Shown here one piece after another: positions 627 through 33,568 of a stretch of DNA of 64,000 bases (position 1 is its first letter; every line of letters starts with the position of its first letter). The position numbers and the translations under genes are program-made. This stretch comes from Marinitoga aeolica (lineage in GTDB: Bacteria; Thermotogota; Thermotogae; Petrotogales; Petrotogaceae), in assembly GCF_029910535.1 (NCBI RefSeq), contig NZ_CP069362.1, positions 1,860,001 through 1,924,000 on the forward strand, written 5' to 3'. A model generated the notes under the pieces. The model had not been told where the DNA came from and made no database searches. It saw only the letters and a list, made by a program, of their open reading frames with translations.

Positions 627-1565
627 ATGAGAAAAGTTCTTATTGTGTTATTAGCAGTTTTATTTTCTGCTTTGATTTTTGCAAATGCAGAGTATTATGT
701 AGTAAAAAGTGGGGATAGTTTGTCAAAAATTTCTGAAGTTACAGGTGTAAGTATTGATAAATTGATTAAATACAATAACATTCAAAACCCAGATCTTATT
801 GTTGTTGGACAAAAATTAAGATTAATGCCAGAATATACACAAAAAGATTTAAATGAACAAATGGTTTTGGCAATGGACTGGTATCAAACATCTGGTGAAA
901 TGAAAGCTTTGGCTTATCAAGCATTTAATGTTGCAAAAATGGTTTTTGATAATGATTTAGCAAATAATAATGATCCAATGAAAAGAGCAGTTATAGTTGA
1001 TATTGATGAAACTATCTTAAATAACAGCCCATATGATGCAGGGCATATTGATACAAATCATGCATACCCAACAGGTTGGAATGATTGGTGTAATGCAGCA
1101 CTAGCAACAGCATTACCTGGAGCTGTAGAATTTTTAAATTATGTTGTTGAAAAAGGTGCAGATGTATATTATATTTCAAATAGGAAAGTTGCTGTAAAAG
1201 AAGGAACTATGAAGAATTTAAAAGCTTTAGGATTCCCTCAAGTTACAGATGATCATGTCTTATTAAGAACTGATACATCCGATAAAGAACCAAGAAGAAA
1301 AATGGTAGAAAAAGATCATAGAATTGTATTATTAATGGGAGATAATTTAAATGATTTTACATCAGTATTTAGACATAAAGGATTAAAAGAAAGAAATGCT
1401 TTAGTTGATCAATTTAAAAATGAATATGGAGTAAAATTCATCTTATTACCAAATCCAATTTATGGTGACTGGGAAGGTGCAATTTACAATGGAAATTGGG
1501 GTTTAAGCCCAGAAGAAAAGAGCAAAACAAGAAAATCAGTTATAACAAAATGGCCAGAACAATAA
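627..1565 (+). CDS. Secreted LysM-domain HAD acid phosphatase (class B / e(P4)-like)
   Basis: A 312-residue exported protein. Residues 1-21 form a signal peptide ending in ANA. Residues 22-66 are one LysM domain (YYVVKSGDSLSKI...VGQKLRL), which binds peptidoglycan-type glycans. The rest is an HAD-superfamily IIIB acid phosphatase: motif I DIDETIL with nucleophile D125 and acid D127, motif II YISNR near 182-186, motif IV GDNLNDF near 238-244. The e(P4) family removes phosphate from nucleotides outside the cytoplasm, for example in scavenging nucleosides or NAD. The lipoprotein cysteine of classical e(P4) is absent; the LysM domain may replace it as the wall tether. GAGGAGGGTG precedes the ATG. 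The gene is single and followed by a hairpin. Confidence 0.85.
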   Translation: MRKVLIVLLAVLFSALIFANAEYYVVKSGDSLSKISEVTGVSIDKLIKYNNIQNPDLIVVGQKLRLMPEYTQKDLNEQMVLAMDWYQTSGEMKALAYQAFNVAKMVFDNDLANNNDPMKRAVIVDIDETILNNSPYDAGHIDTNHAYPTGWNDWCNAALATALPGAVEFLNYVVEKGADVYYISNRKVAVKEGTMKNLKALGFPQVTDDHVLLRTDTSDKEPRRKMVEKDHRIVLLMGDNLNDFTSVFRHKGLKERNALVDQFKNEYGVKFILLPNPIYGDWEGAIYNGNWGLSPEEKSKTRKSVITKWPEQ

Positions 1566-1579
1566 TTTCTAAAATATTT

Positions 1580-1603
1580 ACAGCCTCCTTTTAAGGAGGC
1601 TGT
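1580..1603 (+). terminator. Hairpin terminator after the LysM phosphatase
   Basis: ACAGCCTCCTT and AAGGAGGCTGT form an 11-bp stem with a very short loop 15 bp after the stop codon. The following T tract is weak, so it may be an imperfect terminator. Confidence 0.6.
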
Positions 1604-1653
1604 TCAGTTTGTTGCCAAACATAGACATATTTTTAATGCAGCGCATTAAAAAT
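1604..1653. other. Structured intergenic element, copy A (two small hairpins)
   Basis: Two perfect stem-loops lie between the terminator and the 63-bp array: GTTTG/CAAAC (1607-1611/1616-1620) with loop TTGC, and an 11-bp stem ATTTTTAATGC/GCATTAAAAAT (1629-1639/1643-1653) with a 3-nt loop. The same order of motifs occurs in the element at 6739-7020, where the second stem reads ATTTTTAATAC/GTATTAAAAAT. The pair that differs is changed on both sides. No open frame is present. The role is unknown. Confidence 0.55.
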
Positions 1654-2271
1654 AAACAAAAAGATTTTTAATAAAAGAATTTAAATTTTGCGAAGCAAAT
1701 GCTATGCATTAAAAATAAACAAAAAGATTTTTAATAAAAGAATTTAAATTTTGCGAAGCAAATGCTATGCATTAAAAATAAACAAAAAGATTTTTAATAA
1801 AAGAATTTAAATTTTGCGAAGCAAATGCTATGCATTAAAAATAAACAAAAAGATTTTTAATAAAAGAATTTAAATTTTGCGAAGCAAATGCTATGCATTA
1901 AAAATAAACAAAAAGATTTTTAATAAAAGAATTTAAATTTTGCGAAGCAAATGCTATGCATTAAAAATAAACAAAAAGATTTTTAATAAAAGAATTTAAA
2001 TTTTGCGAAGCAAATGCTATGCATTAAAAATAAACAAAAAGATTTTTAATAAAAGAATTTAAATTTTGCGAAGCAAATGCTATGCATTAAAAATAAACAA
2101 AAAGATTTTTAATAAAAGAATTTAAATTTTGCGAAGCAAATGCTATGCATTAAAAATAAACAAAAAGATTTTTAATAAAAGAATTTAAATTTTGCGAAGC
2201 AAATGCTATGCATTAAAAATAAACAAAAAGATTTTTAATAAAAGAATTTAAATTTTGCGAAGCAAATGCTT
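1643..2271. repeat. Tandem array: ten perfect head-to-tail copies of a 63-bp unit
   Basis: Units start at 1643, 1706, 1769, 1832, 1895, 1958, 2021, 2084, 2147 and 2210. Each begins GCATTAAAAATAAAC and ends GCGAAGCAAATGCTAT; no differences were seen between full units. Each unit contains an inverted pair ATTAAAAAT/ATTTTTAAT separated by 10 nt and a hairpin TTTGC-GAA-GCAAA. The last copy runs directly into the ribosome site of the kinase gene at 2285. There are no unique spacers, so this is not a CRISPR. Sixty-three bp equals about six helical turns, and the unit is rich in A/T tracts. Confidence 0.95.
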
Positions 2272-2284
2272 TTGGAGTGATAAT

Positions 2285-3004
2285 ATGGAAATAGATGTTT
2301 ATGGTGCAACATTTTATGATATTTATATTTTAGGAGATGCTCCTCACAATTCAAAAATAATAGAAATACCGGGTGGATCTGGTTTTAATATAGCTTATAC
2401 TTTGTATAAATTAGGTTATGAAATAAACTTTAATTCTTTTATTGGCAATGATCATAAGGGGAAATACCTTGAAGATATGATACCATTTAAATTAGAAAAA
2501 GTTGAAGAAAAAACAGCAACATTTATTTCAAGAAATGGAAATCCACTTGCCGTAGAAAGAAAAATAAATGATAGTAATTTTAAAAAAATTGAAAAAAAAT
2601 CAGATGTTGCGATAATAACTACAGAGCTTTCTATTAAGGAATTAATAGAAATAGAAAAGCTAGGATATAAAAAAATCTTCTTTGATATTGGGCCACGTCC
2701 TTTTATTGCAGAAAATATTTTTAATAATGCATTTGTATTAGGCACAGAAAAAGAATGCAAATACAGAAATTGTAATTTAATAAAACTTGGAAATAGAGGT
2801 ATAAAATTTAATAATGAAATATATAATTCAAATGGTAAAATTGCAAAATACAAAACAGGATTAGGAGATATATTTGACGCATTTTTTATTCATTATATTT
2901 TAAATAATTATTCCATTGAAGAAGCTATAAAAATTTCGATAGATAAAGTCGAAAAAGTTTTAGATATACCAGGTGCATATAATAAAATAAATTATTTAAT
3001 TTAA
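2285..3004 (+). CDS. Short PfkB-family carbohydrate kinase-like protein
   Basis: A 239-residue protein with both PfkB/ribokinase signatures: the N-terminal glycine motif IPGGSGFNIAYTLYKLG (GGSG about residue 30) and the C-terminal TGLGDIFDAFF (residues 191-201). D195 is the expected catalytic base, and DTGAGD is degenerated to TGLGD. The family phosphorylates sugars or nucleosides with ATP. Usual length is about 300 residues, so the lid and part of the middle are reduced; the substrate cannot be told. The ATG at 2285 is chosen because GGAGTG (2274-2279) sits 5 bp upstream. A TTG at 2255 in the same frame lies inside the last 63-bp repeat and lacks a ribosome site. Confidence 0.75.
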   Translation: MEIDVYGATFYDIYILGDAPHNSKIIEIPGGSGFNIAYTLYKLGYEINFNSFIGNDHKGKYLEDMIPFKLEKVEEKTATFISRNGNPLAVERKINDSNFKKIEKKSDVAIITTELSIKELIEIEKLGYKKIFFDIGPRPFIAENIFNNAFVLGTEKECKYRNCNLIKLGNRGIKFNNEIYNSNGKIAKYKTGLGDIFDAFFIHYILNNYSIEEAIKISIDKVEKVLDIPGAYNKINYLI

Positions 3005-3032
3005 TTTTTATATAAACGTAATTTTTTTTGAT

Positions 3033-3055
3033 TATAATCATACCAACCGGTCGGT
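3033..3055 (+). promoter_or_regulatory. Promoter -10 with overlapping TetR-type palindromic operator
   Basis: A consensus TATAAT (3033-3038) is followed at once by ACCAACCGGTCGGT (3042-3055), a near-perfect palindrome with one mismatched pair. It is GC-rich in a very AT-rich setting. ACCGACCGGTCGGT-like sites are typical TetR-family operators. The palindrome covers the expected transcription start of the exporter operon, which ends in a TetR gene, so autorepression is the likely logic (inference). Confidence 0.7.
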
Positions 3056-3083
3056 TTTTTAATAATTTTTAAGGGGTGGTTAT

Positions 3084-5618
3084 ATGAAAAAATTAGGAAA
3101 TTTTGTTATTCAATATTCAAAAAGCACATTAATTTTTATTATTGGAATAACAATTATTTCAATAATTCTAATTACTAAATTAGAAATCAAACCAGGATTT
3201 CTTGATTTACTCCCTTCAGATGATCCTTATGTAAAAACATATGAAGAAGCCACTAAAAGCTTTAAAAGTGTTGACAGTATAATAATAGGTATTGAGGGAT
3301 CAAAAGAGAATATCATTAAATATATAGAATATATTTCAAAAAAACTTAAAAATGTTGATTATATTGATGCTATATATTATAAAAATCCAATAGATTTTAT
3401 TTCAAAAAATATTTTTTTACTTTCTTCTGATGAAGAGCAAAAATTTTTAAAGAAGCTATATACTTCATCTAATCTGGTTGATTTTTTTAATGCTTTAAAT
3501 ATGATGTTTGAGGAATCTGATAATAGACATAAGGTAACTGAACAAGATAAAAAACGATTTGAATATATGATTGAATCTTTTAATAAGCTTTTAATAAGCA
3601 TGAAAAACGAAGATATAGGAATGGTTAAAGATGAATTTTTAAATATGTTATTTGGAGAAAAATATATGCTTTCAAAAGATGGGAATTTTGGAATGATCGT
3701 AATTAGACCTACAATAAGTTCTAATGATATAAACAAAGTAGTGAAATTAGTTAATTCTATAGAAAATATTGTGAAAAAAAATGCTGGAACGTATAATGTA
3801 AAAGCTGGTTTAACTGGAACATTGGTTATTGCAAGAGATGAAATGGTTGTTTCCGATAGAGATATGGCCGTTGCTACAACAGTTTCTTTAATATTGATTT
3901 TGATTATATTTATATTAGGATTCAGAAGTTTCAGATACATGATTTTATCTGTAATTCCACTTATTTTAGGTATATTATGGGCTTTGGGATTTACAAAAAT
4001 TACTATTGGGTCATTAAATATTATGACTATTATGATGGGAGCTATTCTTGCAGGATTAGGAATTGATTATTCCATACACATAATTTCTTTATATATTGAA
4101 TTAAGAAACAAGAATTTTTCTAAAATAGATGCATTAAAAGGCGTTTTTGAAAAGAATGTTAGAGGAATTATAGCAGGTGCTCTTACAACAGCTATAGGTA
4201 TGGGAATTTTTGCAATTAGCTCTTTCCCTGGATTTAGAGAATTTGGTATAGCTTTGTCTTCCGGAATAATATTTACGTTATTAGCTGCAATTTTTGGATT
4301 AACTGCATTATTAAAAAAGTTTGGAACTAAATATAAAGATCCTGGTAATGCATTTATTATAGACTATAATATAAAAAAATATAGAAGTATAAGTATAGCA
4401 GTATTGGTTATTTTAATATTATTATCATTTTTCAAAATCAAAAATGTTGAATTTGATAAAAATATGATGAATATTGAAGCAAAAGGATTAGAAAGCATAA
4501 AATTAAATGAAAAAATTTTAGAAGAATTTGAGTTTTCTCCAGATAATACTGTATTTATTAGCAGAAATTTAGATGAGGCAAAAGTTTTATATGATAAATT
4601 AAAAAATTTAAAAATTTTTTCTCAGATAGATAGTATATCTTTATTTTTACCAGAAACAGATTCTCAGATTGCCAGATTAAGAAATGCATATGAAGCAAAA
4701 AATACAAAAATAGTTAATAAAAAATTGGATCAAAAAAAGCTAAAAGCAGAAATTAATAAACTCAATTTTAATCTTACCAAAACTGCATTATCAATAAATT
4801 TAATGGGTTATAAGAATCTTGCTGAAAAACTAAAAGATATAGTAAAAAGTGGTGTTTTAATACAAATAGCAAACAAAAAGACAGAAAATATTTTAAAATT
4901 GCAAAATATTATTATTCCATTAATTAATGATTTAAAAAAAGGTCTTAATTCTACAGAATTAATTTCAATTGAAAAGATTCCGGAAGAAATAAAGTCTAAT
5001 TATTTAGGTAAAGATGGAAAAGTTTTAACAACTGCTTATTCTAATGGAGATATGTGGAATGCTGATTATCAAAAAGAATATTTTAATCAGTTGAACAAAT
5101 TAAATTTGAAAAATGTTAGTGGTACAGCACTTATCTTCTTAAGAGTAATTCAAGTTTCCGCAAGAGAAGGAAAGAAAATTTTATTATTAACGATAATCTT
5201 TATTTTTATAATATTATTATTAGATATGAAGAGCTTAAAATATGCAATTATAGCCTTATTACCGATGATTATATCTATAATTTTAGTATTAGGGGTTATG
5301 GGATGGTTTGATATTAAGTTTAATGTAGTTAATATTATAGCCCTTCCTTTGATAATAGGAATAGGTGTAGATGATGGAATACATCTTATACATAGGTATA
5401 GAAGAGAAAATGATTTAAGAACAGCTTTAAAAAGTACAGGAAAAGCTATAACTATGACTACCTTAACAACTGGTGCAGCTTTTGGATCTTTTATATTAGC
5501 TAAATATAGAGGGTTTGTAGGCTTTGGATTATTATTACTCTTGGGTGTAACTTTTAGTTATTTGATCACAGTATTTATAGTTACATCAATTTTAAGTTAT
5601 ATGGAGGAAGATAAATAA
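3084..5618 (+). CDS. MMPL/RND-type exporter (HAE3 / HpnN-like)
   Basis: An 844-residue membrane protein with the duplicated RND layout: TM1 (about 14-33), a large outside loop (about 35-260), TM2-6 (about 262-410), TM7 (about 433-452), a second outside loop (about 455-690) and TM8-12 (about 693-838). Each half carries the acidic transmembrane motif of proton-driven RND pumps, GLGIDYSIHI near 328 and GIGVDDGIHL near 755. MMPL/HAE3 proteins move lipids, hopanoids or hydrophobic drugs to the envelope. It is the first gene of an operon with a flavodoxin-like gene (overlapping by one base) and a TetR regulator, under an operator-like palindrome. This suggests ligand-induced efflux. Confidence 0.85.
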   Translation: MKKLGNFVIQYSKSTLIFIIGITIISIILITKLEIKPGFLDLLPSDDPYVKTYEEATKSFKSVDSIIIGIEGSKENIIKYIEYISKKLKNVDYIDAIYYKNPIDFISKNIFLLSSDEEQKFLKKLYTSSNLVDFFNALNMMFEESDNRHKVTEQDKKRFEYMIESFNKLLISMKNEDIGMVKDEFLNMLFGEKYMLSKDGNFGMIVIRPTISSNDINKVVKLVNSIENIVKKNAGTYNVKAGLTGTLVIARDEMVVSDRDMAVATTVSLILILIIFILGFRSFRYMILSVIPLILGILWALGFTKITIGSLNIMTIMMGAILAGLGIDYSIHIISLYIELRNKNFSKIDALKGVFEKNVRGIIAGALTTAIGMGIFAISSFPGFREFGIALSSGIIFTLLAAIFGLTALLKKFGTKYKDPGNAFIIDYNIKKYRSISIAVLVILILLSFFKIKNVEFDKNMMNIEAKGLESIKLNEKILEEFEFSPDNTVFISRNLDEAKVLYDKLKNLKIFSQIDSISLFLPETDSQIARLRNAYEAKNTKIVNKKLDQKKLKAEINKLNFNLTKTALSINLMGYKNLAEKLKDIVKSGVLIQIANKKTENILKLQNIIIPLINDLKKGLNSTELISIEKIPEEIKSNYLGKDGKVLTTAYSNGDMWNADYQKEYFNQLNKLNLKNVSGTALIFLRVIQVSAREGKKILLLTIIFIFIILLLDMKSLKYAIIALLPMIISIILVLGVMGWFDIKFNVVNIIALPLIIGIGVDDGIHLIHRYRRENDLRTALKSTGKAITMTTLTTGAAFGSFILAKYRGFVGFGLLLLLGVTFSYLITVFIVTSILSYMEEDK

Positions 5619-27634: not shown

Positions 27635-27991
27635 ATGAAATTAGGAGATGTAATTAAAAGTGCCGATTTTAAAAATGAAAAGCACGTTCCAGTAATAGAC
27701 GCACCAGAAAAAGTAAAAGCTGGTGAATTATTTAAAGTAGAAGTACAAGTTGGAAAGGATATTCCACATCCAAATACTGTAGAACACCATATTTCATGGA
27801 TTGATTTATATATTCATTATGAAGGTAATCCAAATACAGTTCATTTAGGAAGATTTGAATTTGGCCCTTCTGTAACAGAGCCGCATGTAATTACACATAT
27901 AAAACTTGATAAAAAAGGTACTTTAATAGCACACTCTTATTGTAATTTACACGGTTTATGGGAATCAGAAAAAGAAATAGATGTTGAATAA
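27635..27991 (+). CDS. sor: Superoxide reductase (neelaredoxin, class II)
   Basis: A 118-residue one-iron protein without the N-terminal desulforedoxin domain. The ligands of the His4Cys site are recognisable: EKHVPVI, VEHHISW and the C-terminal YCNLHGLW. It reduces superoxide to H2O2 without making oxygen, which suits an anaerobe. The ATG at 27635 lies behind GAGGAGGG; a TTG at 27620 overlapping the rubrerythrin stop is not preferred. It forms a two-gene operon with rubrerythrin and ends in a strong terminator. Confidence 0.95.
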   Translation: MKLGDVIKSADFKNEKHVPVIDAPEKVKAGELFKVEVQVGKDIPHPNTVEHHISWIDLYIHYEGNPNTVHLGRFEFGPSVTEPHVITHIKLDKKGTLIAHSYCNLHGLWESEKEIDVE

Positions 27992-28020
27992 AATAAGCGA
28001 GCTTTTGGCTCGCTTATTTT
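27991..28020 (+). terminator. Terminator of the rubrerythrin/SOR operon
   Basis: AAATAAGCGAGC / GCTCGCTTATTT 12-bp stem with a T-rich loop and tail, directly at the stop codon. Confidence 0.9.
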
Positions 28021-28062
28021 ATTAGATTTATTATTTTATTATTTCTTAACATTTTTGTAAAA

Positions 28063-28097
28063 TGTGAATGTTATAATAATCACAAATAAATGTGAAT
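28063..28097 (+). promoter_or_regulatory. Promoter and operator-like palindrome of the hydrogenase maturation operon
   Basis: TATAAT (28072-28077) is flanked by three TGTGA half-sites: TGTGA (28063-28067), TCACA (28080-28084) and TGTGA (28091-28095). TCACA-N6-TGTGA is a symmetric palindrome placed at the expected transcription start. The -35 is weak (TTAACA with a 20-bp spacer). This layout fits a repressor of redox or iron type, but the regulator cannot be named. Confidence 0.5.
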
Positions 28098-28101
28098 AAT
28101 T

Positions 28102-28206
28102 TCTCCTGAGATGAAGGGTGAAAACCTAACATCAAGGGAGGGGAAAGAAAAGGAATATAATATTCCCCTTCCTTGATGTATAAAAAAGGAAGGGGGTTTT
28201 TATTTT
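28102..28206 (+). ncRNA. Attenuator-like leader RNA of the hyd operon (candidate riboswitch)
   Basis: Three competing folds are visible. (1) A compact 5' fold: TCTCCT (28102-28107) with AGGGGA (28139-28144), GATG (28110-28113) with CATC (28130-28133), and AGG/CCT closing a GAAA loop. (2) A 17-bp helix, 28129-28145 with 28163-28179, with one G-U pair. (3) An intrinsic terminator CCCCTTCC (28165-28172) with GGAAGGGG (28188-28195), then TTTTTATTTT. Helix 2 excludes both 1 and 3, so folding of 1 would allow termination. The terminator 3' arm is also the ribosome site of the next gene. It matches no known riboswitch I can recall. Confidence 0.7.
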
Positions 28207-28453
28207 GGAGAAAAAGATTAGTACCATTTCTATAATTGTATATAACAGAGAATTAGCCTATCAAAAAGTAAGCGATATTTTACACAATTACGGTGAAAAG
28301 GTTCTTTTAAGAGTAGGATATCCGATGAAAGAGAAAGACATAGCTATAATATTTTTAATTGTTGAAATGACGACTGATGAATTAGGAGCTTTATCAGGCA
28401 AATTAGGTCAGGTTGAATCTGTCAAAGTGAAGACAAATACTTTAAGAATATGA
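28205..28453 (+). CDS. TM1266-family putative iron-only hydrogenase system regulator
   Basis: An 82-residue ACT/NikR-C-like ferredoxin-fold protein (ISIIVYNRELAYQKVSDILH, LLRVGYPMKEKDIAIIFLIV, GALSGKLGQVESVKVKT). It matches the small protein TM1266 of Thermotoga, found at the head of hyd maturation clusters and called a hydrogenase system regulator. It has no DNA-binding domain of its own. The TTG start at 28205 follows GGAAGGGGG, the 3' arm of the leader terminator, so its translation depends on leader folding. It is 9 bp before hydG. Confidence 0.88.
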   Translation: MEKKISTISIIVYNRELAYQKVSDILHNYGEKVLLRVGYPMKEKDIAIIFLIVEMTTDELGALSGKLGQVESVKVKTNTLRI

Positions 28454-28462
28454 GGTGAGATT

Positions 28463-29881
28463 ATGATGTATTTTATTAAAGATAATGAGAATTTAAAATC
28501 TTTTATTCCACAACAGACTATTTTAGATTTATTAGAAAAAACAAAGAATCCTGATCGTGCTAAGGTTAGAGAGATTATTCAAAAATCACTCGATAAAAAT
28601 AGATTGGATCCTGAAGAAATGGCTACATTATTAAATGTAGAAGATGAAGAGTTACTTGAAGAAGTATTTGAGGGAGCAAGAGAGTTAAAAAGAAGAATAT
28701 ATGGTAATAGAATTGTATTGTTTGCACCGTTGTATATTGGTAATGAATGTATTAATAATTGTCAATATTGTGGTTTTAGAATTACAAATAAAACAATTGA
28801 AAGAAGAAGTTTATCGTTAGATGAAGTTGTTGAAGAAGTAAAAGCTTTAGAAAATAAAGGTCATAAAAGATTGATAGTAGTTTTTGGAGAACATCCAAAA
28901 TATGATGCAAAATTTATGACAGAGACAATTAAGACTATATATAATACAAAGTTTGGTAAGGGTGAAATAAGAAGAGTTAATGTTAATGCTGCGCCTCAAA
29001 CTGTAGAAGATTATAAGCTGTTTAAAGAAGTAGGAATAGGAACATTTCAAATTTTCCAAGAAACTTATCATTATGAAACGTATAAAAAATATCATTTAAG
29101 TGGTCCGAAATCCAATTATTATTGGAGGTTATATGGATTAGATAGAGCATTCAAAGCAGGATTAGATGATGTTGGAATAGGAGCATTGTTTGGATTGTAT
29201 GATTGGAAATTTGAAGCAATGGGATTATTATACCACACAATACATTTTGAAGAAAGATTTAATGTAGGGCCCCATACAATATCGTTCCCAAGGATGGAAC
29301 CTGCATTAGATACTCCACTTGCAGAGAGGCCTCCTTATGCAGTTTCTGATAACGATTTTAAAAAATTAGTAGCAATTTTAAGACTTGCTGTTCCATATAC
29401 TGGATTAATATTAACTGCAAGAGAACCAGTAGAAATAAGGAATGAAGTAATGAAGTTTGGTGTTTCGCAGATAGATGGTGGTTCTTCAATTGGTGTTGGA
29501 AGTTATCATGAAACAGATGAAGAAAAATTAAAAAGAAGTCAGTTTTTATTGGGAGATAATAGAACATTAGATCAGATAATAGAAGAATTAGCTGAGGAAG
29601 GATATTTGCCATCATTTTGTACAGGATGTTATAGATTAGGAAGGACAGGAGAACATTTCATGGAATTTGCAATTCCTGGTTTTGTTAAAAGATTTTGTAC
29701 TCCTAATGCTATATTAACATTTTTAGAATATATTGAAGATTATGCCCCTGAGAAAACAAAAATAATTGGTATAAAAAGAATAGAAGAAGAATTAAAAAAT
29801 ATGAATAATAATCCTTTAAAGGAACAATTACTTGAAAAAATCAAAAAAGTAAAAGAAGGAGAGAGAGATCTTTATTTTTAG
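28463..29881 (+). CDS. hydG: [FeFe]-hydrogenase maturase HydG (radical SAM tyrosine lyase)
   Basis: A 472-residue enzyme that cleaves tyrosine to p-cresol, CO and cyanide and builds the Fe(CO)2CN precursor of the H-cluster. The radical SAM motif CINNCQYC (C96-x3-C100-x2-C103) and the C-terminal cluster motif (CTGC, then a Cys 22 residues later in VKRFC) that binds the auxiliary cluster with the dangler iron are both present. The N-terminal helical part resembles ThiH. Two ATGs (28463, 28466) are possible behind GAGGTG. Second gene of the operon. Confidence 0.96.
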   Translation: MMYFIKDNENLKSFIPQQTILDLLEKTKNPDRAKVREIIQKSLDKNRLDPEEMATLLNVEDEELLEEVFEGARELKRRIYGNRIVLFAPLYIGNECINNCQYCGFRITNKTIERRSLSLDEVVEEVKALENKGHKRLIVVFGEHPKYDAKFMTETIKTIYNTKFGKGEIRRVNVNAAPQTVEDYKLFKEVGIGTFQIFQETYHYETYKKYHLSGPKSNYYWRLYGLDRAFKAGLDDVGIGALFGLYDWKFEAMGLLYHTIHFEERFNVGPHTISFPRMEPALDTPLAERPPYAVSDNDFKKLVAILRLAVPYTGLILTAREPVEIRNEVMKFGVSQIDGGSSIGVGSYHETDEEKLKRSQFLLGDNRTLDQIIEELAEEGYLPSFCTGCYRLGRTGEHFMEFAIPGFVKRFCTPNAILTFLEYIEDYAPEKTKIIGIKRIEEELKNMNNNPLKEQLLEKIKKVKEGERDLYF

Positions 29882-29887
29882 GCGGTG

Positions 29888-31012
29888 ATGAATATTTCAA
29901 AGAGATTAGAGAGATTGAAAATAAAATTAATAGAATTGAAAAAAGAAATGCCGTTGGAGATAAATGAAGTAATTGACTATTTTTTAAAACATATGACTTT
30001 AAATTATGAAAAAGTGTTATGGATACTTTCTTTAAATGAAGAAAATTTAAAAGAGAAAATATATAAAGTAGCAGATATAGTAAATAAAACGCTAAATACT
30101 GATATTGTAACCTTAAAAGGTGTAATTGAATTTAGCAATTATTGTAAGAAGAGTTGCTATTATTGTGGTATAAGAGTTCAGAATGATATAATAAAAAGGT
30201 ATAGAATACCTATAGATGAAATTTTTGAAATAGCTAAAAATGGTGTAGAGAGTGGGTTAACAACCATAATATTGCAATCAGGAGAAGATGATTTTTATAG
30301 TGATGATGATCTGGAAAAATTAATATTTAGAATTCATCATGAACTTAAAACAGCGGTATCTATTTCTATTGGTGAGAGGAGTAAAGAAGCTTATAAAAGG
30401 TTTAGAAATGCTGGTGCTTCAAAGGTGTTGTTGAAACACGAGGCGATTAATAGAAAGATATTTGAAGATGTGCATCCTGATAAGGATTATGATTTGAGAA
30501 TAGAATTGCTTGATTATTTAGTAGAATTGGGGTATATAACAGGTTCAGGTAATATTATAGGATTACCAGGTCAAACATTAGAAGATATAGCGAAAGATAT
30601 AATCTTTATGAAAGAACATAATATTAAAATGATAGGAATGGGGCCGTTTATTTCTACACATAATACACCATTGGAAAATTTGGAAAATGGTTCAGCAGAG
30701 TTAACATTAAATGCATATGCAGCAACAAGATTAACAATACCATTTGCTCAAATGCCAGCTACAACAGCGCTGGGTACTATAGACAGGAATTATCAATTTA
30801 AGGCTTTAAACTGTGGATGTAATGTAATTATGGTTAATTTAACTCCTGACGAATATCGAGAAAATTATAATATATATGATGAAAAAATAAAAGTTGATTT
30901 ATTGGGAACAGCTCAAAGAATATTGGATATGGGATTAAAAATTCCGCCATATACATTGAGAAATTTATTTATTAAGGAGGCACAGTATGGCTTCTCCAAT
31001 GAAAGGTTATAG
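29888..31012 (+). CDS. hydE: [FeFe]-hydrogenase maturase HydE (radical SAM)
   Basis: About 374 residues. The radical SAM motif YCKKSCYYC (CX3CX2C, about 86-93) lies after a helical N-terminus. The barrel includes TIILQSGEDDFYSDDD and GSGNIIGLPGQTLEDI, typical of HydE/BioB relatives. HydE converts the HydG product into the dinuclear iron precursor of the H-cluster. The start is uncertain: ATG 29888 lies just after GGCGGTG with tight spacing, 6 bp after the hydG stop. The end overlaps hydF by 26 bp. Confidence 0.95.
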   Translation: MNISKRLERLKIKLIELKKEMPLEINEVIDYFLKHMTLNYEKVLWILSLNEENLKEKIYKVADIVNKTLNTDIVTLKGVIEFSNYCKKSCYYCGIRVQNDIIKRYRIPIDEIFEIAKNGVESGLTTIILQSGEDDFYSDDDLEKLIFRIHHELKTAVSISIGERSKEAYKRFRNAGASKVLLKHEAINRKIFEDVHPDKDYDLRIELLDYLVELGYITGSGNIIGLPGQTLEDIAKDIIFMKEHNIKMIGMGPFISTHNTPLENLENGSAELTLNAYAATRLTIPFAQMPATTALGTIDRNYQFKALNCGCNVIMVNLTPDEYRENYNIYDEKIKVDLLGTAQRILDMGLKIPPYTLRNLFIKEAQYGFSNERL

Positions 31013-32195
31013 AAAATACATAGCAATAACAGGAAAAAGAAATGTTGGGAAATCGACTTTAATAAATGCTATTTTGAATCAGGATATTGCTATTGTCAGT
31101 GATTTTCCTGGAACTACAACAGATCCTGTATATAGAACAATGGAATTAGTTCCTTTAGGGCCTGTAACCATTGTGGATACACCTGGAATAGATGATGAAG
31201 GGTTAGTTGGAGAAAAAAGAATAAAAAAGGCTACAAAAGCATTATATAAGGCTGATATAGCATTATTAGTTGTAACAGATGTAATATCTAATTATGAGAA
31301 AGAATTAATTGATAATTTTAAAAAATTAAATATTCCATTTTTAATAATAATAAATAAAATAGATGAAATAGAAAATATAGAGAAAATAAAGAAAACATAT
31401 CTAGAATATACAAGTAAGATAATAGAGATTTCAGCAAAAGAAAAAAAGAATATTGAAAAATTAAAAGAAGAAATTGCAAAATTATTGCCAAATGAAGAAG
31501 AAGTACCTTTAATAGCGGATTTAGTAGAACCGGGACAGCTGATTATATTAGTTGTTCCAATAGATCTTGGAGCACCAAAAGGAAGGTTAATAATGCCACA
31601 AGTTACTGCAATTAGAGAAATATTAGATAGAGAAGCGATCGCAGTAGTTACAAAGGAAAGAGAGCTAAGGCATACATTAGAAAAATTAAATCAAAAGCCG
31701 GATTTGGTAATTACAGATTCTCAAAGTGTAATGAAAGTTGTTTCTGATATTGATTTTGATATACCACTTACTACATTTTCTATATTAGAAGCACGACATA
31801 AAGGAGATTTGAAAATATTATCTGAAGGAATAAAAGCGATAGAAAATTTAAATGAAAATGATAAAGTAATAATAATGGAAGGTTGTTCTCATAGACCGTT
31901 GACTGAAGATATAGGTCGAGTAAAAATACCAAGATGGCTTACAAATCATTTAGGAATTAATTTAAATATAGAGTTTTTTGCTGGAACGGAATTTCCTGAT
32001 TATGATATAGTAAAAGATGCAAAATTGATTATTCATTGTGGTGGATGTACTTTAACTAGAAAGAGTATGATAAGAAGAATAAATATTGCTAATATGTATA
32101 ATATACCAATTGTTAATTATGGAGTTATAATATCTTATTTACATGGTGTCTTAGATAGAGCATTAGAGGTATTTCCAGAATTAAAGAGGGTGTAA
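30987..32195 (+). CDS. hydF: [FeFe]-hydrogenase maturase HydF (GTPase scaffold)
   Basis: A 402-residue protein. The N-terminal GTPase domain has G1 GKRNVGKSTL (16-25), G3 DTPG, and G4 NKID. A dimerisation part follows, then a C-terminal iron-sulfur domain with GCSHRPL and HCGGCTL, which together give the CxHx(about 50)HCxxC ligand pattern. It assembles and delivers the two-iron part of the H-cluster to the hydrogenase. The start ATG 30987, behind AAGGAGG, lies inside the end of hydE, showing coupled translation. Confidence 0.96.
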   Translation: MASPMKGYRKYIAITGKRNVGKSTLINAILNQDIAIVSDFPGTTTDPVYRTMELVPLGPVTIVDTPGIDDEGLVGEKRIKKATKALYKADIALLVVTDVISNYEKELIDNFKKLNIPFLIIINKIDEIENIEKIKKTYLEYTSKIIEISAKEKKNIEKLKEEIAKLLPNEEEVPLIADLVEPGQLIILVVPIDLGAPKGRLIMPQVTAIREILDREAIAVVTKERELRHTLEKLNQKPDLVITDSQSVMKVVSDIDFDIPLTTFSILEARHKGDLKILSEGIKAIENLNENDKVIIMEGCSHRPLTEDIGRVKIPRWLTNHLGINLNIEFFAGTEFPDYDIVKDAKLIIHCGGCTLTRKSMIRRINIANMYNIPIVNYGVIISYLHGVLDRALEVFPELKRV

Positions 32196-32197
32196 AA

Positions 32198-33568
32198 ATG
32201 AGAGTCGAAAAAGATTTTATAGGTGAAGTTGAAATTCCAGATGATGTTTATTATGGAATCCATACCTATAGAGCTTTAAATAATTTCCCGAATACAGGTG
32301 AGAAATTAAATAATAGCTTTATTTGGGCGTTTTTTATGATAAAAAAAGCAGCTGCTATTTTAAATTTTGAATTAGGATATTTGAATGAAAACGAAAAAAA
32401 TGCTATTGTTCAAGCATGTGATGAATGGGAGTCTTTAAAAAATCATATAGTAGTTGATCCATTGAGTGGTGGAGCTGGTACATCGATAAATATGAATATA
32501 AACGAAGTAATAGCTAATAGAGCTACGGAAATACTTGGAGGAAAGAAATCTGAATATATCATTGATCCCTTAGATCAAGTAAATATGCATCAATCAACTA
32601 ATGATGTTTTTCCTACAGCTGGAAAAGTAGCAATTATAAAAGAGTTAAGAGAGTTAGTAGAAAATGTGATAAAATTACAGGATTCAATACAAGTTAAAGA
32701 AAAAGAATATATTAAAATAAGAAAAATAGGAAGAACACAATTAATGGATGCTGTTCCTATTTTATTAGGTCAAGAATTTGGTGCTTGGGCAGACACTCTA
32801 AGCCGGGATAGATGGAGATTATATAAAGTTGAAGAGAGAATAAGAAGTGTAAATATTGGAGGTACAGCAATAGGAACAGGAATAGCTGCACCAAAAGAAT
32901 ATATTTTGAAAATAGTAAATAAGGTTAGAGAAATAACAAAAATTGGCATAGCAAAAGCAGAAAATTTAATAGATGCAACACAAAATTTAGATGTATTTTC
33001 TGAAGTTAGCGGATTATTAAAATCTTTAGCAGTAAATTTAGTAAAAATATCTAATGATATAAGGGTTTTAGGTTCAAATGCAGTAAATGAAATTAAATTA
33101 CCAAAAATACAAGCAGGGAGTTCTATAATGCCTGGTAAAGTAAATCCAGTTATACCAGAATATGTTATACAATTATCAACTAGTGTGATATCTTTTGATA
33201 ATTTAATTACATATGCGTCAAGTATGGGAAATTTAGAGTTGAATCATTTAACACCTATGATTATTCATTATACGTTAAAATCAATAGATTTTCTAAAAAA
33301 AGCAACATATTCCCTAAAAAATTATATAGAATTAATTCAACCAAACGAAGAAAAATGCCATGAAAACTTAGTTAAATCATTTACTTTGGTAACCCCATTA
33401 ATAGAAATATTTGGATATAATGAAGTATCAGAGAGCTTAAAAGAAAATAATTTCGACATAGAAAAGACAGTAAAAGATTTATCAAAAAAGAGGAATTTTG
33501 ATTTTAAAGAGATAATGAATAAAATAAATTCAAATAGATCTGCAGGATTAGGATATCGCCTAAAGTGA
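32198..33568 (+). CDS. aspA: Aspartate ammonia-lyase (fumarase/aspartase superfamily)
   Basis: A 456-residue enzyme of the aspartase type. DPLSGGAGTSINMNINEV near 88-105, DQVNMHQSTNDVFPT near 128-142 and the superfamily signature GSSIMPGKVNPV near 308-319 are all present. It releases ammonium from aspartate to give fumarate. It begins 2 bp after hydF, so it belongs to the maturation operon. The bridging ligand of the H-cluster contains an amine nitrogen, so a local ammonium source is a plausible reason (inference). It ends in a hairpin and overlaps the convergent mscS by 9 bp. Confidence 0.9.
   Translation: MRVEKDFIGEVEIPDDVYYGIHTYRALNNFPNTGEKLNNSFIWAFFMIKKAAAILNFELGYLNENEKNAIVQACDEWESLKNHIVVDPLSGGAGTSINMNINEVIANRATEILGGKKSEYIIDPLDQVNMHQSTNDVFPTAGKVAIIKELRELVENVIKLQDSIQVKEKEYIKIRKIGRTQLMDAVPILLGQEFGAWADTLSRDRWRLYKVEERIRSVNIGGTAIGTGIAAPKEYILKIVNKVREITKIGIAKAENLIDATQNLDVFSEVSGLLKSLAVNLVKISNDIRVLGSNAVNEIKLPKIQAGSSIMPGKVNPVIPEYVIQLSTSVISFDNLITYASSMGNLELNHLTPMIIHYTLKSIDFLKKATYSLKNYIELIQPNEEKCHENLVKSFTLVTPLIEIFGYNEVSESLKENNFDIEKTVKDLSKKRNFDFKEIMNKINSNRSAGLGYRLK

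Follow-up and report, generated by a model that had tools for sequence, protein, structure and literature searches.

Upstream of the Marinitoga aeolica operon TM1266-hydG-hydE-hydF-aspA, which includes the [FeFe]-hydrogenase maturation genes, lies a leader in which several hairpins compete for the same strands. This raises the questions of whether the leader is an attenuator, how widely it is conserved and what might act on it. To our knowledge, the control of H-cluster assembly is largely open and, although annotations have long listed TM1266 as a putative regulator of the hydrogenase system, its target is not known. The window analysed here is a stretch of 64,000 nt, and all positions refer to it unless another locus is named.

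Structure of the leader and its operon

The features of the leader and the genes that follow it, with the type of evidence for each, are as follows.

28069–28077, + strand: extended -10 element TGTTATAAT, TGtTATAAT (sequence)
28100–28143, + strand: twin-loop sensor hairpin (folding, covariation, match to covariance model R2 with E 2.7e-12)
28100–28107/28136–28143, + strand: hairpin P1 (folding)
28108–28109/28134–28135, + strand: hairpin loop 1, GA/AA (folding)
28110–28113/28130–28133, + strand: hairpin P2, GAUG/CAUC (folding)
28114–28115/28128–28129, + strand: hairpin loop 2, AA/AA (folding)
28116–28119/28124–28127, + strand: hairpin P3 (folding)
28120–28123, + strand: hairpin tetraloop (folding)
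28129–28145, + strand: 5′ strand of the antiterminator helix, overlapping the 3′ half of the hairpin (folding; also seen in roughly half of the family members)
28163–28179, + strand: 3′ strand of the antiterminator helix, overlapping the 5′ arm of the terminator (folding, family comparison)
28164–28206, + strand: intrinsic terminator, an 11-bp stem (28164–28174/28186–28196) and a U-tract (28197–28206) (folding)
28188–28196, + strand: ribosome-binding site of TM1266, GGAAGGGGG, inside the terminator stem (sequence)
28205–28453, + strand: TM1266 family gene, 82 aa, TTG start, candidate effector (TIGR03959, E 4.8e-26; PF21699)
28463–29881, + strand: hydG (TIGR03955, E 1e-152)
29885–31012, + strand: hydE (TIGR03956, E 4e-89)
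30987–32195, + strand: hydF (TIGR03918, E 3e-161)
32198–33568, + strand: aspA, aspartate ammonia-lyase, the last gene of the operon (NF008909, E 5e-170, over the cut-off)

The order of the five genes given in the original prediction was confirmed by NCBIfam models, with the curated cut-offs passed for TIGR03959, TIGR03955, TIGR03956 and TIGR03918, and aspA recognised by a subfamily model. The desulfoferrodoxin-type gene upstream of the leader has its own terminator (27987–28023) and the extended -10 element places the predicted start of transcription at approximately 28084–28086, about 15 nt before the hairpin, so the region from 28063 to 28206 is a genuine leader. The -10 element was missed by a generic promoter scan because it is not preceded by a good -35.

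When bases 28095–28150 were folded alone, the compact 5′ fold that had been proposed was recovered, with a minimum free energy of -19.0 kcal/mol (z = -4.2) equalled by none of the shuffles. The 17-bp helix, also proposed, is present with one G.U pair and an energy of -28.0 kcal/mol (z = -5.6), and folding bore out that it takes strands from both the 5′ fold and the terminator. An intrinsic terminator is indeed found, with TTTTTATTTT following the stem and an energy of -18.1 kcal/mol, but its 11-bp stem is slightly longer than the pairing of 28165–28172 with 28188–28195 originally drawn. The idea that the termination fold buries the ribosome site was likewise upheld, as GGAAGGGGG makes up the 3′ arm of the terminator and the TTG start codon of TM1266 is 8 nt further on.

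Conservation and distribution of the twin-loop hairpin

The upstream regions of TM1266 in relatives carry the same core, and its anatomy was compared over 88 distinct cores from Thermotogota, Bacillota, Bacteroidota and single genomes of other groups. The consensus is CUGA-N4-RAGG-loop-CUGA-N4′-RAGG, in which both strands read CUGA-N4-RAGG and pair in antiparallel orientation. Two identical G.A loops (G.A + A.R and R.A + A.G) flank the 4-bp P2, giving the core a pseudo-twofold symmetry around P2. The first pair of P1 is C-G in all 88 cores and the second is U.G in 85, while the next, which was not selected by the search patterns, is paired in 88 of 88 (CG 46, UA 41, UG 1). P3 consists of a G.U pair in 81 of the 88, a G-C pair in every one, and a third pair in 81 (AU 36, GC 32, UA 7, CG 2). 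An alternative register for P3 explained fewer pairs (71 % versus 86 %) and was rejected. In P2 both sides vary at each position (GC/UA/CG/AU, GC/AU/UA, UA/AU/CG and GC/CG/AU/UA for pairs 1 to 4, respectively), and the versions seen include GGUG/CACC, CUUA/UAAG, AACC/GGUU and UAAA/UUUA. The P2 pair counts lean towards pairing because members found without regard to the P2 sequence had to have at least three of the four P2 pairs; this bias does not affect the outer P1 pairs or the third pair of P3.

The conservation and covariation of the helices in related species that had been put forward as a check was found. For 52 diverse sequences the covariation score was 0.508, compared with 0.221 ± 0.014 for shuffled sequences, which do not model kinship, and no more than 0.197 when the partner strand was slid; all P2 pairs covary and the compensatory changes span phyla. 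The first set, which was mostly Thermotogota, had scored 0.329 against 0.199 (shuffled) and 0.207 (slid). The loop and U.G positions, on the other hand, are near-invariant across phyla in the 88 sequences. It is almost certain that the core is a conserved structured RNA that acts in cis.

A search with the core pattern found matches in 45 of 103 Thermotogota genomes, whereas a reversed control pattern found none in the same 103 genomes. With a first covariance model (R1), the core was detected in 64 of the 103, in one or two copies each. The cultivated thermophile genera that carry it include Thermotoga, Fervidobacterium, Thermosipho and Marinitoga. A scan of GTDB representatives revealed the core before TM1266 in Ignavibacteriales, Neomarinimicrobiota and Coprothermobacter genomes, and three genomes from the same phylum as the Ignavibacteriales one (Bacteroidota in GTDB) also carry it before TM1266. 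The single-genome occurrences outside the main phyla could reflect gene transfer or binning errors. GTDB pattern matches in high-G+C or coding DNA, and all viral matches, were judged to be due to chance. Within the window, R2 gave a weak hit (E 0.004), with a long loop, at 31738–31810 inside the hydF coding region; this too is probably due to chance.

The apparent absence of the core from Bacillota when R1 was used proved to be an artefact. R1 missed these members because it had a fixed P2 sequence, and the weak matches had a different, fully compensated P2; they were recovered by a scan that left P2 free and by a second covariance model (R2) built from diverse members. The free-P2 scan and a pattern search over the same genomes revealed the consensus given above. 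Among the 398 genomes of the Bacillota scan, 16 of 25 matches with a complementary P2 adjoin TM1266, compared with 4 of 101 non-complementary ones (p = 1e-10). R2 detected the core at 11 of 30 Bacillota TM1266 loci, five of which share members with its training set, and every match was in a TM1266 or hydG leader. A further 60 Bacillota TM1266 leaders gave 25 matches up to E 0.5, all 25 on the sense strand (sign test, 6e-8), and many Bacillota TM1266 leaders had no convincing match to the model. In some Bacillota, two twin-loop hairpins occur in tandem before TM1266 (L205, bases 1311–1400; L288, 159–254; L335, 145–230).

The reach of the motif is wider than the operon in the window, as it is also found before hydF, before hydG alone and before a hydrogenase gene. 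In 83 of the 88 cases, the core lies upstream of TM1266, hydG, hydF or hydE, and the first recognised gene downstream is TM1266 in 56, hydG in 16, hydF in 10 and hydE in one. Two copies of the Fervidobacterium type precede an [FeFe]-hydrogenase gene, and the one that was checked is group A6-like. In Bacillota, a second copy is often located between TM1266 and hydG. At one locus (L102), the motif is followed, from base 1884, by an open reading frame with an HNH-like motif, HHIVQRSKGGTDTP, as seen in transposon-encoded nucleases, and this is possibly a mobile element that inserted behind the leader.

Expression platforms and comparison with known leaders

An intrinsic terminator follows the core in 72 of the 88 cases, and in 51 of the 88 a helix of at least 8 bp joins the 3′ half of the core to the 5′ arm of the terminator. 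An alternative helix of 10 bp or longer is present in 54 leaders. With the 3′ arm of the terminator still to be transcribed, the antiterminator state in these 54 outweighs the core by a median of 7.2 kcal/mol, and in 43 of them by more than 2 kcal/mol. The complete leader in the window prefers the core together with the terminator (-37.8 kcal/mol). As the antiterminator wins early and the complete leader prefers core plus terminator, holding the core would lead to termination and leaving it free to read-through. These findings support the attenuator with OFF logic that had been predicted, and we consider an OFF polarity, read from the anatomy of the leader, to be very probable.

In the proposed mechanism, RNA polymerase would make the twin-loop hairpin first. 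With nothing bound to the hairpin, the antiterminator helix, being more stable, would invade it, the terminator would not form and the hyd operon would be transcribed. If instead the hairpin is held by a factor, its 3′ half would be blocked and the terminator could form just before TM1266, silencing transcription and the TM1266 ribosome site together. In some lineages the hairpin would cover the ribosome site directly. The leaders of Mesoaciditogaceae (L006, L040, L184, L185) are of this kind, the 3′ side of P1 itself being the ribosome site of TM1266 or hydF, and this is a predicted translational platform with the same polarity reached by another route.

A simpler possibility is that the leader senses nothing and is a constitutive attenuator, an mRNA-stability hairpin or a DNA element. 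The terminator by itself could set a basal level of expression, and a TGTGA…TCACA palindrome at the promoter suggests additional control at the level of DNA. Such a reading is very improbable given the near-invariance of the loop nucleotides across phyla, the way in which the mutually exclusive pairing follows the core as it changes, and the existence of both transcriptional and translational platforms.

The promoter region was compared across the family. Of 65 Thermotogota leaders, 29 have TATAAT at 8–52 nt before the core, compared with 8.2 in shuffles, and 40 have TGTGA or TCACA upstream of it, compared with 5.5. In many Thermotogota leaders, the -10 box is embedded in a palindrome resembling TTGTGA-TATAAT-TCAC (L050, L053, L015, L048, L102 and L184, and 28063–28084 in the window), which is similar to the site of a Rex-type redox repressor. 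This palindrome suggests a second, putative layer of control at the DNA level.

When Rfam 15 was searched at its gathering thresholds, the window, six loci from Thermotogota and other groups and seven loci from Bacillota and Bacteroidota matched only tRNA, and a permissive scan of the window leader returned only sub-threshold matches. The statement that no described class has this core thus held for Rfam 15, with no family matching the window or the 13 other loci. The matches to mir-2985 and the L10 leader reflect only the long helix and the terminator, and a resemblance to the TPP box (CUGAGA…CCUGA) was dropped because there was no Rfam match to TPP. Tandem copies of the Wco/Moco riboswitch have been reported upstream of genes that include those for hydrogenases (PMC9481103), but none of the motif loci scanned matched the Moco/Wco family in Rfam. 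In the literature searched in full text, a leader RNA of hydG, TM1266 or hydrogenase genes was not described, although an earlier description is possible, and hydrogenase genes are not mentioned in two systematic ncRNA-discovery papers (PMC8632094, PMC11109978). As judged from sequence, the twin-loop leader is a widespread, putative cis-regulatory RNA OFF switch for [FeFe]-hydrogenase maturation that matches no Rfam family.

Two kinds of known leader are most similar. Like OFF-type metabolite riboswitches that terminate transcription, the twin-loop leader has a conserved 5′ domain, mutually exclusive antiterminator and terminator and biosynthesis genes downstream, with ribosome-site platforms in other lineages. 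It differs from them in having two small symmetric loops rather than an aptamer with a junction or pseudoknot, and in being strictly accompanied by a small sensor protein. With the leaders controlled by PyrR, by L10 and by TRAP-type attenuation it shares a design in which a factor would stabilise one of two exclusive folds, and a candidate regulator that is often encoded first in the operon. The best scores of the twin-loop leader against the L10 leader and PyrR models were well below the cut-offs (23.5 versus 44 and 17.4 versus 54, respectively), and the protein encoded beside it differs in being a NikR-like sensor domain.

TM1266 and other candidate effectors

The distribution of the motif was compared with that of TM1266 in the 70 Thermotogota genomes that encode HydG. 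Both were present in 64, TM1266 only was present in one (G042, which also retains hydG), neither was present in five, and none had the motif without TM1266. The absences of the motif were confirmed using R2, the more general model. The association is significant (Fisher p 5e-7) when kinship is ignored, but the five genomes belong to one genus and, because TM1266 and the motif had been adjacent, a single deletion could explain their joint loss. In the two of these five genomes that were examined (L175 and L176, from G017 and G008), hydG is located behind a tmRNA-like gene, the same place as in the relative that keeps TM1266 and the motif. TM1266 goes with the hyd genes, and part of the co-occurrence therefore reflects the pathway. 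G042 and the many unmatched Bacillota TM1266 leaders also indicate that TM1266 does not always need the motif RNA.

Where TM1266 is encoded away from hydG (L177–L180, L036–L039), the motif remains at hydG. Pure autoregulation of TM1266 was rejected for this reason, and any effector would have to act in trans.

The predicted structure of TM1266 (pLDDT 96.5) agrees with the crystal structure of the protein, 2NZC, and the top non-self matches in the PDB are to the C-terminal domain of NikR (E about 1e-5, TM about 0.8). The 82-aa protein is a single ferredoxin-like domain that has the fold of the ACT-like metal-sensor domain of this nickel repressor, and is without the ribbon-helix-helix domain through which NikR binds DNA. 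We know of no RNA-binding motif in TM1266. Taken together, the co-occurrence, the NikR sensor fold and the fact that the RNA is small and symmetric make TM1266 the best single candidate, and its mention among the possible signals in the original prediction gains support from the 64 of 64 motif-positive Thermotogota genomes that encode it. On this comparative evidence, there is an even chance that TM1266 is the factor that holds the hairpin. Acting in trans, it would probably contact the two symmetric loops of the RNA as a dimer and, by hypothesis only, would report the status of a metal or H-cluster precursor. The fuller proposal, that TM1266 is a NikR-type sensor, its DNA-binding part lost or never present, that reads the twin-loop RNA as a symmetric dimer, dependent on a metal or H-cluster precursor, and thereby switches off [FeFe]-hydrogenase maturation in several phyla, falls a little short of even. 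For TM1266 itself, the twin-loop RNA offers a concrete 44-nt candidate binding partner or sensor, and the question can be addressed with purified parts because the motif occurs in cultivated thermophiles and many Bacillota.

The leader may instead be a true riboswitch. Its hairpin would then bind a metal or small molecule linked to H-cluster synthesis (Fe2+, the HydG product, SAM, tyrosine or another) and turn expression off by feedback, with TM1266 merely a protein of the pathway. The expression platforms and OFF polarity match those of riboswitches that repress biosynthesis, the loop and U.G positions of the core are near-invariant, and tandem copies occur (L205, L288 and L335, above). The motif also marks the whole pathway (TM1266, hydG, hydF, hydE and hydrogenase) rather than a single gene, and one copy (L181) precedes an SsuA-like ABC transporter, as could be expected of a metabolite switch. 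A short stacked hairpin with two 2×2 loops and neither junction nor pseudoknot would, however, be unusual as a metabolite aptamer, its twofold pseudo-symmetry fits a dimeric protein or two ions, and the strict tie to TM1266 (64 of 64 with the motif, 0 of 5 without TM1266) is not predicted by this explanation. We consider a small-molecule riboswitch plausible, at clearly less than even chance and nearly as likely as TM1266 as effector. Of the riboswitch logic originally claimed, attenuation and the OFF polarity stood, and a small-molecule aptamer in the strict sense is plausible. The short, nearly fully helical, pseudo-symmetric hairpin and strict TM1266 co-occurrence make a protein-binding site at least as likely as an aptamer. 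If the ligand does turn out to be a metabolite, this would be a hydrogenase-maturation riboswitch, for which we found no description.

Another RNA-binding protein could bind the hairpin and leave the attenuation mechanism unchanged, since a symmetric double-stranded element with invariant loops resembles a protein site. We regard this as rather improbable: no further candidate protein was co-encoded with the motif among the loci examined, and the 3-nt bulge of a kink-turn is missing, both loops being symmetric 2×2 in 88 of 88 sequences.

At L181, the core (base 1136) is located between an [FeFe]-hydrogenase gene and genes for the SsuA-like substrate-binding protein, a permease and an ATPase (genes at 1305–3660). 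No other non-hyd target was seen, and what the transporter carries could give a clue to the ligand. Most Thermotogota genomes also encode, away from the hyd genes, a second TM1266/PF21699 paralogue that matches weakly (for example, G000:C1:744924–745154).
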